In this document: one piece after another, positions 1 to 18,830 of the stretch
How positions within the stretch are numbered: position 1 is the first letter of the stretch
How the letters are laid out: the number at the start of each line of letters is the position of its first letter
NCBI GenBank assembly: GCA_009841605.1
Contig: VXLM01000023.1
Location: 1 to 64,000, forward strand
Source of the DNA: Dehalococcoidia bacterium
GTDB lineage: Bacteria > Chloroflexota > Dehalococcoidia > Lucifugimonadales > VXLM01
Direction: 5' to 3'
Length of the DNA: 64,000 nucleotides
Notes under the pieces: generated by a model
The model's database searches: none
What the model was told of the DNA's origin: nothing
What the model saw: the letters and a program-made list of their open reading frames with translations, nothing else
Position numbers and translations under genes: made by a program

Positions 1-535
1 GTTCAACCGTAGTCTCGAACGGTCGTGCTCTGACAATAGCCCGGGCGATCCGCCGTGACCTTCGCTCCTCTCCGAGTCGGTAAATGAGATTGGCCAGGCT
101 TTCCTCGTCCGTGTCGTTGACGATCTCCTTGGCCGATCTTCCGATGGAGGGGCCGAACCGCATGTCCAGCGACGCTTCCTTCGAGAAAGCGAACCCGCGA
201 GAGGCGCTGTCGAGTTGGAGTGACGAGACTCCAAGATCGAACAGGACCCCGTCGCAGGGGAGAAAATCGTGCTCGGCGGCGACTTCGGCGATGTTTACAT
301 AACTGGTCTCGACCAGCCTTACCGACTCACGAAACCGGGAAAGCCGGTCTTCCGCGACCGCAAGCGCCTCTCGATCCAAGTCCAGACCGAGCAGTCGGGC
401 AGGGGGATCGCAGTGGCCGAGAATGGCCTCTGCGTGACCGCCCTCTCCGTTTGTGCAGTCGACATAGTTTCCATCCGAACGCGGCTGGAGCGCTGATACG
501 ACCTCATCCACCATCACAGGCTTGTGATGAATCAC
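1..535 (-). CDS. rsmH: RsmH, 16S rRNA (cytosine-1402 N4) methyltransferase (partial)
   Basis: RsmH is a SAM-dependent methyltransferase that modifies C1402 of 16S rRNA in the ribosomal P site. The readable part is the N-terminal 178 residues; the C-terminus runs off the left edge. It shows the family opening 'HKPVM' followed by DEVVSAL, the SAM-binding motif DCTNGEGGH (residues 26-34), GLDLD (50-54) and DGVLFDLGVSS (95-105), all in the usual RsmH order. No ATG fits; GTG at 533-535 gives the family-typical N-terminus, with an internal ATG seven codons later as the alternative. The gene diverges from mog. RsmH usually opens a cell-division cluster, but what follows here lies outside the window. 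Confidence 0.93.
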   Translation of the reverse strand, partial: MIHHKPVMVDEVVSALQPRSDGNYVDCTNGEGGHAEAILGHCDPPARLLGLDLDREALAVAEDRLSRFRESVRLVETSYVNIAEVAAEHDFLPCDGVLFDLGVSSLQLDSASRGFAFSKEASLDMRFGPSIGRSAKEIVNDTDEESLANLIYRLGEERRSRRIARAIVRARPFETTVE

Positions 536-713
536 CTGGCACCCTCTAGAGAGCAATGCTGCGTGCTACACTGTTAATGTGCTGCGGCCCGGTGCAAGGC
601 ACCTAAAAGCCGGTTATGTCCGAGTCTCACAGATGCGACGAAGGACGTGCAAGAGATTTTGAATATAGTTTTATACTTTTTCTAAACATTGACTGAATAA
701 ATCGTATGTTCCA
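536..713. other. Divergent intergenic region rsmH/mog
   Basis: This 178-bp gap separates divergent rsmH and mog. The half next to mog (about 650-713) is clearly AT-rich and could hold its promoter. An extended -10-like TGCTACACT (564-572) reads toward mog but has no matching -35. No hairpin or small ORF was seen. Confidence 0.4.
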
Positions 714-10280: not shown

Positions 10281-10320
10281 CAAATGAAAAATCCCGTCCC
10301 TTGCATCAAGGGACGGGATT
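10281..10320 (-). terminator. T-box attenuator terminator
   Basis: This is a GC-rich stem of about 13 bp with a 4-nt loop, followed on the minus strand by a U-rich tract. It is the regulated terminator of the leuS leader. Confidence 0.92.
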
Positions 10321-10640
10321 CTGAATGCGCAACGAATCTCGCGGTACCACCCTCGTTCCCCGGCACTCCATCCCCTTCAGTGGAACCGACTCTACATGGT
10401 CAGAAACCGTCCGAAGCGGTGGCACGGGACACTTGGAGACGATAACGGCGCCTACCGTCTCGGCCTGGGAGTTCAGTACTTTCCCCCACAAAGCAGGGAT
10501 ATGAAGCTACCTTCAGCCAAGAGGCTCAAGGGCGAGTTCGCGGGGGCGTAGTCGCTGAGGCTTCCACCACACGGCCTCATTCTCTATCGCTCGCTGCCCG
10601 TTACTACTCCCTGTCAAAGCCTTTCATAGGTATTCGATTG
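10281..10640 (-). ncRNA. T-box leader of leuS
   Basis: T-box RNAs sense uncharged tRNA and then block a terminator. On the minus strand this leader has the invariant T-box core AGGGTGGTACCGCGAG (10338-10353). A terminator follows: a stem of about 13 bp, AATCCCGTCCCTT/AAGGGACGGGATT (10290-10320), running into TTTTTCATTT. Upstream, a stem I region carries the GGAGTAGTA start and an AGAGA motif (10581-10585). The best specifier codon is CTC (complement of 10534-10536) in a GCGAACTCGCC context, a leucine codon that matches the downstream gene. The specifier is my reading of the fold and was not computed. Confidence 0.93.
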
Positions 10641-10898: not shown

Positions 10899-10928
10899 TT
10901 GGTAGACCTGACGGCGTGTTGGTACAAT
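10899..10928 (+). promoter_or_regulatory. Putative promoter of the PilM-like fusion gene
   Basis: TTGGTA (10899-10904) and TACAAT (10923-10928) are separated by 18 bp, giving a leader of about 50 nt to the ATG at 10984. Confidence 0.55.
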
Positions 10929-10983: not shown

Positions 10984-12864
10984 ATGCCTCGAAAGACGTT
11001 AGACGAGCTGTTTCGTTCAGGCCCACCCCGCCGTGATTCGGGCGATTCACGTGATGAACTGAACGAAGTGGAAAAGCAGTTCGTCCTTTGGGGCCTGAAG
11101 GAAGAGTGGAAGCTTTCGCGCATCGCGGAGGCACTCGGGGTTGACGGGTCAGCCGTACGACAGTTCCGGATCGACCTTGTGAGCAACCCCGGCGTACTGC
11201 TTGATCTCGATGTAGTCGAGCCGATAGAGGATCAGGGGGTCACGATGTTCCGGTGCGTGGGGTGCACTGTCCACCTCAACTCTCCTGATCAAATCGACCG
11301 GCACGCGCTGGCGCACTTTCTCAAAGATTCCGATCTCGACTCGGCGATTGCGGCACGCCAGCGGTCGAATCGTCAACGCCTCCAGTCTTGGTCCGACCAA
11401 CCGGAAGCGGACGGTTTGGGCGAATCTCAAGCGAAGACGGATCAGTCCCCGGACTCGTCCCAAACGGAAAATGGCGAGAACGATGTGCCGTCAGTGGTGC
11501 CGCCTGACGCAGACCGTTCTGAGCTGCTCCAGGCGCTCCGCCGGATAGCCGCGCTTCCTGAGGAACCCGAGTCTCCCGATGAGCCTTCGGTCAATGCTGA
11601 CGCGGATGCGGAGAAATCACCCAAACAGGAATCACAGCCTCCGCACATCGAAGGAGTGGATACGTTCGACGTGCATAACGCATTCGAGCGCATGGCGGAA
11701 CGGCGCGGCTTGTCGGAAGACACGGCTGAATCAAGTGCCAAACCCCATTTCGAGGTCTACTCCCAGGGGGAGGCGGCAGAGTCTCATCACGACGCGTCCT
11801 CAAGCAACGTAGACTCCACCGAGAATACGGAACCCGATTTCATTGAAGGTCATTCAGAGCATGCCAGTGGAGTGGAAGCATCTGAGGACGGACGACGAAG
11901 CAAGAGAAAAAGAGGGTTTCTTTCGCGATGGGCGCGATCTGCCAATGCGGAACGGCAGCGCCGCGATGTCGTAGGCGGAATGGGAAGCGTCAAAGAGGCT
12001 ACGTCCGTCACAATCGAGTCCGGGGTGATGAAAATCCTGTCCACGAGAATGCTGGATGTCGTCGACTATCGCGCTGTGCCGTTGTCGCCTCAACTCTACG
12101 CAGGCGGGGTCGTTGTCGACGCGGGCACCATAAGCAGACACTTGGCGGCAGCTTTGGCCGACATGGAGGGTGCTCACAGGGCTGTCTACGCTGCCGTCCC
12201 AGGGTATCAATCGGCCATGCGGCGCTTTGACCTGCCGGACGTGCGGGAGATCGACCCGAAGGAGGTGATACCCCGCGAGGCCAGGCGGGCGCTCGGCATT
12301 CCTGTTGAGAATGCCACATTGCGTTGGCAGCGCCTTCCAGGCCGTTCGCGTATCGCCCGGTGGCTGGTTGCCGCAGCTTCCGAGAGCTCCTATTCGGCCA
12401 TCTCGTCGGTAATAAGAGGCACCGGCCACAAGATGCGCGCACTGGAACTTCGTCCCTTCCCCCTGACGAGGGCTATCGGTCACCCTACAGTGATCGGAGT
12501 GTCCGTGTCTTCGGACGGATGCGACGTGGTCGTCGTACGCCAGTGGGAGCCTCACACGTACCAGTCGGTCTATTGGGAGGCCGGCTCCGTCTCGGACAGC
12601 AGCGATCTTGTCAGGCGACTCACCGAAGTGGTCGAGAACACCATCGACCTGCACAATCTCCATAACCCGGAGGTGTCCCTGACTCCCGATGTACCGATGG
12701 CACTCACCGGCGGAGAAACGGAGCATCACGCCGACTTGGGGATGTTCGTAGCCTCCAACGTCGGCAGAGAACTCGTGGAAGGGAAGAACCCCCTCAATGC
12801 CCCGGGCGACTTCCCCTACCAGTCGATGATCGTAAACGTCGGTCTCGCCCTGTGGGACGTCTAG
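10984..12864 (+). CDS. HTH / C2H2 zinc finger / PilM-like fusion protein
   Basis: This 626-residue protein has an unfamiliar architecture. Residues about 30-65 look like a helix-turn-helix (SRIAEALGVDGSAVRQFRIDL). Next comes Cys91-X2-Cys94-X12-His107-X3-His111, the exact spacing of a classical C2H2 zinc finger. Residues about 125-320 are acidic, Ser/Glu-rich and probably disordered, ending in a basic patch RRSKRKRGFLSRW. The C-terminal 300 residues resemble the actin-fold PilM/ComGA-type pilus protein: VTIESGVMKILSTR, VYAAVPGYQSAMRRFDLPDV and IPREARRALGIPVENATLRWQ. The usual phosphate-binding DIG loop appears as VSVSSDG, so nucleotide binding is doubtful. No pilN, pilO, pilB or pilC is adjacent. 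It may be a cytoplasmic DNA-binding scaffold; the function is unknown. Confidence 0.6.
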   Translation: MPRKTLDELFRSGPPRRDSGDSRDELNEVEKQFVLWGLKEEWKLSRIAEALGVDGSAVRQFRIDLVSNPGVLLDLDVVEPIEDQGVTMFRCVGCTVHLNSPDQIDRHALAHFLKDSDLDSAIAARQRSNRQRLQSWSDQPEADGLGESQAKTDQSPDSSQTENGENDVPSVVPPDADRSELLQALRRIAALPEEPESPDEPSVNADADAEKSPKQESQPPHIEGVDTFDVHNAFERMAERRGLSEDTAESSAKPHFEVYSQGEAAESHHDASSSNVDSTENTEPDFIEGHSEHASGVEASEDGRRSKRKRGFLSRWARSANAERQRRDVVGGMGSVKEATSVTIESGVMKILSTRMLDVVDYRAVPLSPQLYAGGVVVDAGTISRHLAAALADMEGAHRAVYAAVPGYQSAMRRFDLPDVREIDPKEVIPREARRALGIPVENATLRWQRLPGRSRIARWLVAAASESSYSAISSVIRGTGHKMRALELRPFPLTRAIGHPTVIGVSVSSDGCDVVVVRQWEPHTYQSVYWEAGSVSDSSDLVRRLTEVVENTIDLHNLHNPEVSLTPDVPMALTGGETEHHADLGMFVASNVGRELVEGKNPLNAPGDFPYQSMIVNVGLALWDV

Positions 12865-13382
12865 TCCGAAACTGCATTGCGCCAGCGAATGATGTCGAAG
12901 TTTACGGTGGACTCGATCACCGCGTCTCTCAGTGAGACCAGCGAAGGCATGATCCTCAGATCGACTCCGGCGTCGACGAGTGCCCCCATGGGATCAGGAA
13001 TCGGCTCGACTTCCAAGGGCCTGCATTCGTGCTCAGAGACCCAGTACCCCGCGTACTCATCGCGCAGTGCGAAGCCCTCTGCGGGTAGGGTGTACCGATA
13101 GACGGTAGTGTTGCGCATCCGCCGTAGCCAGCGCGACTCGATTGCCGCAACAACCTCGGCCGTAGTGTGGCCGAAGAAGGTCTCAGCGTCCTCAGCCGAA
13201 GTGCTCATAGACTTCGAGATGACCACTCTCGGGCAGTCGCGAGGGAAATAGAACTGGTGACAGTGCGCCCTGTCGACCGCCCAAACGAGCGCCTCGTCGG
13301 ACGGCCCGATCCTAACGGGCCGGGGAACGAAGCGTTCTATCGAGGGGTCTTCGCTGAAGTGATAGAGGTAGTCTGATGTCAT
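12861..13382 (-). CDS. DUF6886-like hypothetical protein
   Basis: This 173-residue soluble protein begins MTSDYLYHFSEDPSIERF and contains VWAVDRAHCHQFYFPRDCPRVV, which I associate with the DUF6886 family (small proteins of unknown function). It has no signal peptide or membrane segment. I start it at 13382; an upstream in-frame start adds ten residues before the conserved YHFSE opening. The pattern of a conserved His after Tyr and the DCPR motif hints at an RNA 2'-phosphotransferase or ADP-ribosyl-type fold, but this is speculative. Its stop codon lies inside the palindrome CTAG, which also supplies the stop of the convergent PilM-like gene. Confidence 0.6.
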   Translation of the reverse strand: MTSDYLYHFSEDPSIERFVPRPVRIGPSDEALVWAVDRAHCHQFYFPRDCPRVVISKSMSTSAEDAETFFGHTTAEVVAAIESRWLRRMRNTTVYRYTLPAEGFALRDEYAGYWVSEHECRPLEVEPIPDPMGALVDAGVDLRIMPSLVSLRDAVIESTVNFDIIRWRNAVSD

Positions 13383-13441
13383 AGGATAGGCGTCAAGCGA
13401 ACGTAACGACAAGGCGAAAGGTCAGTGGGGCAGGGAGTCTC

Positions 13442-18732: not shown

Positions 18733-18830
18733 GGGAGTGGATGGGCTCCGGTGGGCCCTGCGGTCTTCAAAATCGTTGGTCCCGGTGCTTCCACCGGGAC
18801 GGTGGGTTCGACTCCCTCGCACTCCCGCCA
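18733..18830 (+). tRNA. selC: tRNA-Sec (anticodon UCA)
   Basis: The 98-nt gene has the marks of selenocysteine tRNA. The D-stem is 6 bp (GGGCTC/GGGCCC) with a 4-nt loop. The anticodon loop is CTTCAAA with TCA at 18767-18769, and a 9-bp variable arm GTCCCGGTG/CACCGGGAC follows. The T-loop is TTCGACT and the gene ends with G and an encoded CCA. The acceptor stem GGGAGTG/CACTCCC pairs for 7 bp; the expected eighth pair is G-G and the T-stem has one T-T mismatch. It reads UGA as selenocysteine. selA, selB and selD are not in the window. Confidence 0.95.

Follow-up and report, generated by a model that had tools for sequence, protein, structure and literature searches.

The type IV pilus PilM (an inner platform part of the pilus machine) of a Dehalococcoidia bacterium, in a branch of apparently sponge-associated Chloroflexota, has most likely been relocated out of the pilus operon and joined at its N-terminus to a small protein with a predicted helix-turn-helix (HTH) and a predicted classical C2H2 zinc finger, an arrangement that suggests, from sequence and fold models alone, a direct link between the pilus base and DNA. 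The gene lies in the window, here the whole 64,000-nucleotide stretch analyzed (contig VXLM01000023.1, positions 1 to 64,000), and encodes HTH, finger, acidic linker and PilM-like domain in a single 626-aa open reading frame (Table 1). It is the only PilM-like match in its genome (G000; relatives are numbered G001 onward) at E 0.001 or better, while the pilus operon on another contig lacks pilM exactly where close relatives without the fusion carry it. No PilM with a DNA-binding domain is known to us, and literature searches, limited to open-licence PMC papers, found none. The genomes are metagenome assemblies, and the sponge origin is a reading of names in two records of Chloroflexota MAGs (isolates IRC4_bin_30 and APA_bin_48).

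Predicted domains and conservation of the gene

A first-pass annotation of the sequence had described an HTH-like segment, a C2H2 motif of a spacing rare in bacteria, a long acidic linker and a PilM-like C-terminus with an altered phosphate-binding loop, without adjacent pilus genes, and this description is confirmed. The pattern C91-X2-C94-X12-H107-X3-H111 arises in shuffles of the protein with a frequency of 1e-5, and the four ligands are invariant in 11 homologues of 25-75% identity to the query. More distant HTH-finger proteins of the order also keep two Cys and two His, mostly with a 12-residue spacer and otherwise 11 or 13 (20 in one from another family of the class). An AlphaFold (AF2) model of residues 1-129 (pLDDT 87.9) predicts a tri-helical HTH with helices at 28-39, 44-51 and 55-67, followed by a bba finger at about 86-110. 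Foldseek found no significant whole-domain match for this model, only the finger, which superposes on a Kaiso finger (rmsd 1.1 A over 36 columns, prob 0.96), and a sequence profile matches C2H2 chains in the PDB. Pfam searches with the query alone gave nothing useful, although the homologue in G043 hits Pfam HTH_23 at 3.4e-6, above cut-off.

The AF2 model of residues 327-626 (pLDDT 90.6, pTM 0.89) is closer to PilM than to other actin-like proteins: the ten best PDB matches are PilM chains (Thermus, Pseudomonas and a Myxococcus model; E 2.8e-20, for 2ych, to 2.9e-18), with FtsA clearly later (5.6e-14). A sequence profile of the family finds 2ych at E 7.9e-22, whereas the single sequence scores below curated cut-offs (TIGR01175 pilM, 7.7e-6). 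The two conditions that had been set beforehand as refuting the domain assignment, a C-terminal fold prediction without an actin-like match and homologues with unconserved Cys/His residues, did not occur. The lysine that contacts ATP in Thermus PilM (K26; PMC6325625) is kept, and although the phosphate-2 loop is not canonical, its xxDGCDV form is shared by operonic PilMs of the same clade, so that the deviation does not mark a special non-catalytic role, and this sequence detail is not a defining feature within this clade. Substitution rates between G000 and G001 (Table 1) place both the finger and the PilM part under strong constraint. Within the linker, which contains 40 D/E and 13 K/R, the short motif AFERxAxxRG is kept in G001 and G034 and repeated in G004 and G043.

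Table 1. Features of the HTH-finger-PilM gene and its surroundings (window coordinates; dN/dS is G000 v G001)
Feature	Position	Strand	Residues	dN/dS	Remarks
Whole gene	10984-12864	+	1-626		99% identical in G003 (and JAPPDQ010000084.1), 72% in G001
Predicted HTH	11065-11187	+	28-68	0.27-0.36	
Predicted classical C2H2 finger	11245-11319	+	88-112	0.04-0.08	
Acidic, low-conservation linker	11359-11883	+	126-300	0.4-0.7	39% identity between G000 and G001
Linker motif AFERMAERRG	11680-11709	+	233-242		1-3 copies in several homologues
Basic stretch before PilM domain	11890-11973	+	303-330		possible membrane or nucleic-acid contact (inferred)
PilM actin-like domain (predicted fold)	11974-12861	+	331-626	0.05-0.07	
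Lysine aligned with Thermus K26	12031-12033	+	K350		
Variant phosphate loop VSVSSDG	12499-12519	+	506-512		
Promoter-like TTGGTA-N18-TACAAT	10899-10928	+			conserved with G001; weak, by eye
T-box leader upstream of leuS	10306-10626	-			83.3 bits, E 2e-18 in a short search; below the family's gathering score of 93
DUF6886 protein	12861-13412	-			stop overlaps the end of the gene; conserved neighbour seen in G001 and G003 only
Selenocysteine tRNA	18733-18826	+			Rfam, 67.7 bits; close to a cysteine-desulfurase-like and a thioredoxin-like gene

Seventeen of 60 relatives match. The two parts form one ORF in G000, G001, G002, G003 and G034 but two overlapping genes in G011 and G047; in G043 a single in-frame TAG separates them, and in G004 (locus L027, 8031-11100) the HTH-finger part is apparently decaying, with an in-frame TAA, a frameshift and H107Y, while the PilM frame stays open, a natural test of whether the head is dispensable. 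The HTH-finger occurs as a stand-alone small protein in G049, G183 and G210, the last of which also has an ordinary operonic PilM. Some divergent HTH-C2H2 genes (loci L075, L076, L080 and L082) lie near serine recombinases, suggesting a mobile-element origin of the head family. In a phylum-wide sample of 400 genomes, only one near-full-length weak match was found outside the order (G557), the rest not covering the finger, and a search of viral contigs with the HTH-finger profile found none. Downstream neighbours offer only partial synteny: in G002 and G034 the gene is followed by a His-rich small protein, a YtkA-like protein, a CopC-CopD-cytochrome c fusion and a membrane protein (loci L026, 3297-9121, and L029, 11101-16728), G011 and G047 keep only the YtkA-like gene, and in G000 the YtkA-like and CopCD genes are on another contig (C28).

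The pilus operon and the ancestry of the PilM domain

A PilM profile search of 250 genomes of the order gave a single match in G000, G001, G002, G003, G004, G034, G011 and G047, namely the one beside the HTH-finger; G043 has a second match, a PilM-PilN fusion in another pilus system. All nine genomes have PilB- and PilC-family matches, and G000 has two prepilin-type N-terminal matches. The G000 operon, on contig C81 (locus L091), reads pilB-pilC-pilN-pilO-pilD, and pilM is likewise absent from the operon in G001, G002, G003, G011 and G047. In G209, G210, G211 and G227 the order is pilB-C-N-O-M-D, the partial G213 locus shows pilO-M-D, and G015, G023, G029, G165 and G182 also have pilM next to pilO. 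Genes in these loci were called by a simple longest-ORF procedure, and PilN, PilO and PilD were named by profiles built here from a few seeds and by inspection. PilN of the operons without pilM retains the cytoplasmic PilM-docking motif (INxxP type; Px[IV]N[LFMI]), e.g. PKINFAPERR in G000 and VPRINLISERR in G002. In Thermus the first residues of PilN bind a channel in PilM, and PilM is drawn to the membrane by PilN (PMC6325625).

On an IQ-TREE phylogeny of 27 PilM domains, the eight that are joined or adjacent to the HTH-finger form one clade (97/97), grouped with operonic PilMs of G209, G210, G211, G227 and G165, and the query is 37% identical to the G210 operonic PilM. Fused PilM-PilN proteins form a separate group; such a second class of PilM loci in the order, carrying PilM joined to a PilN-like part in one protein, is represented by loci L033, L037, L095, L101, L103 and L035. 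The move out of the operon therefore most simply happened once, beside a small HTH-C2H2 gene to which pilM was mostly fused, and being one event, the absence of operonic pilM in six of six genomes does not amount to six independent observations.

Possible function of the putative DNA-binding head

The explanation favored here, with moderate confidence, is that the gene encodes the working pilus PilM of this bacterium. In this view the PilM domain most likely binds the cytoplasmic N-terminus of PilN and takes its normal place in the PilB-C-N-O inner-membrane platform, while the HTH-finger on its long acidic tether most likely binds specific DNA. The most probable use would be regulation: when platform sites are free the protein would be held at the membrane on PilN, and when they are full or absent the surplus would act on DNA, so that pilus assembly state would control expression of the pilus or of co-regulated genes. 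The computed evidence shows the PilM fold and ancestry, the single origin of the association, the loss of pilM from the operon, the retained PilN motif and the conserved zinc ligands; binding of zinc, DNA and PilN, support of piliation and regulation are inferred, the DNA-binding role resting on fold and conserved ligands only. Occurrence of the HTH-finger as a separate protein, or as a separate gene overlapping pilM, fits two interacting modules. However, a comparison of the regions upstream of this gene and of pilB between G000 and G001 found no shared operator, and the interrupted frames of G004 and G043 indicate that the head can apparently be lost or uncoupled, unless these are assembly errors. 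That a core platform protein is itself a transcription factor, sensing occupancy of the PilN platform by partitioning between membrane and DNA and so directly reporting assembly state to the genome, is not excluded but remains tentative. How cells sense pilus assembly and surface contact and turn it into gene expression is an open question, to which a natural fusion of a platform component to a DNA-binding head would offer a one-protein and easily tested link.

The first-pass annotation had proposed a DNA-binding scaffold built on a non-catalytic PilM fold, and this interpretation is only partly supported: the domains do occur in one protein and homologues keep both parts, but a scaffold divorced from pili is not supported. 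Lack of adjacent pilus genes and the variant loop speak for such an exaptation, yet it appears unlikely given the operon gap between pilO and pilD, the retained docking motif in PilN, the absence of any other PilM-like match in the genome, the same variant loop in operonic PilMs and the low dN/dS of the PilM domain. A joining of two unrelated genes by faulty assembly or gene calling, which the interrupted frames of G004 and G043 might suggest, is already contradicted by the same fusion in several assemblies of two families (G000, G001, G002 and G003; G034) and by the same gene order, unfused, in G011 and G047.

It also appears unlikely that the head of a working PilM contacts DNA to serve DNA uptake, or to tether the pilus base to the nucleoid, rather than to regulate genes. 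Thermus PilM is needed for transformation (cited in PMC5399837) and is part of the DNA translocator (PMC6325625), and a ComEC-like protein is present in G000, G001, G003, G004, G043 and G034, but ComEC was not detected in G002, G011 and G047, which keep the HTH-finger with PilM, so that its distribution does not follow the fusion; moreover, G183 has a stand-alone HTH-finger protein although no pilM, pilC or true pilB was detected there. Only slightly less doubtful is a head that serves as a protein-docking or stability module without binding DNA. Single fingers often bind protein, and the HTH evolves faster than the finger, but the HTH fold is kept next to the finger across families, with the HTH_23 match in G043.

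Comparison with known systems

With type IV pilus PilM (Thermus thermophilus 2ych; Pseudomonas aeruginosa 5eou; TIGR01175, PF11104) the protein shares the predicted fold, the ATP-contact lysine, the genome-level partner set PilB-C-N-O and the PilN docking motif; it differs in its N-terminal HTH, C2H2 finger and acidic tether, its location away from the pil operon, a shorter PilM part (about 300 aa), the variant phosphate-2 loop and scores of the query itself below Pfam and NCBIfam cut-offs. FtsA and GspL, other actin-like platform proteins of the same superfamily, give weaker fold matches than PilM (E 5.6e-14 and 7.9e-10 v 2.8e-20). The finger has the C-X2-C-X12-H-X3-H spacing and predicted bba fold of classical eukaryotic C2H2 fingers, but is single, bacterial and next to an HTH, and provides a bacterial single-finger protein with a spacing usually regarded as eukaryotic, in a small family spread through one order of Chloroflexota. 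The Ros/MucR family likewise consists of bacterial Cys2His2 proteins with a DNA-binding context, but Ros has a 9-residue spacer, three histidines and a larger bbbaa domain (PMC9779718), as against the 12-residue spacer, two histidines and simple bba found here. ArnR/ArnR1, membrane-bound regulators of archaeal type-IV-pilus-like structures (PMC6396743), offer a functional analogy only, as DNA-binding regulators held at the membrane that control surface filaments, but they are separate regulators with no PilM part.
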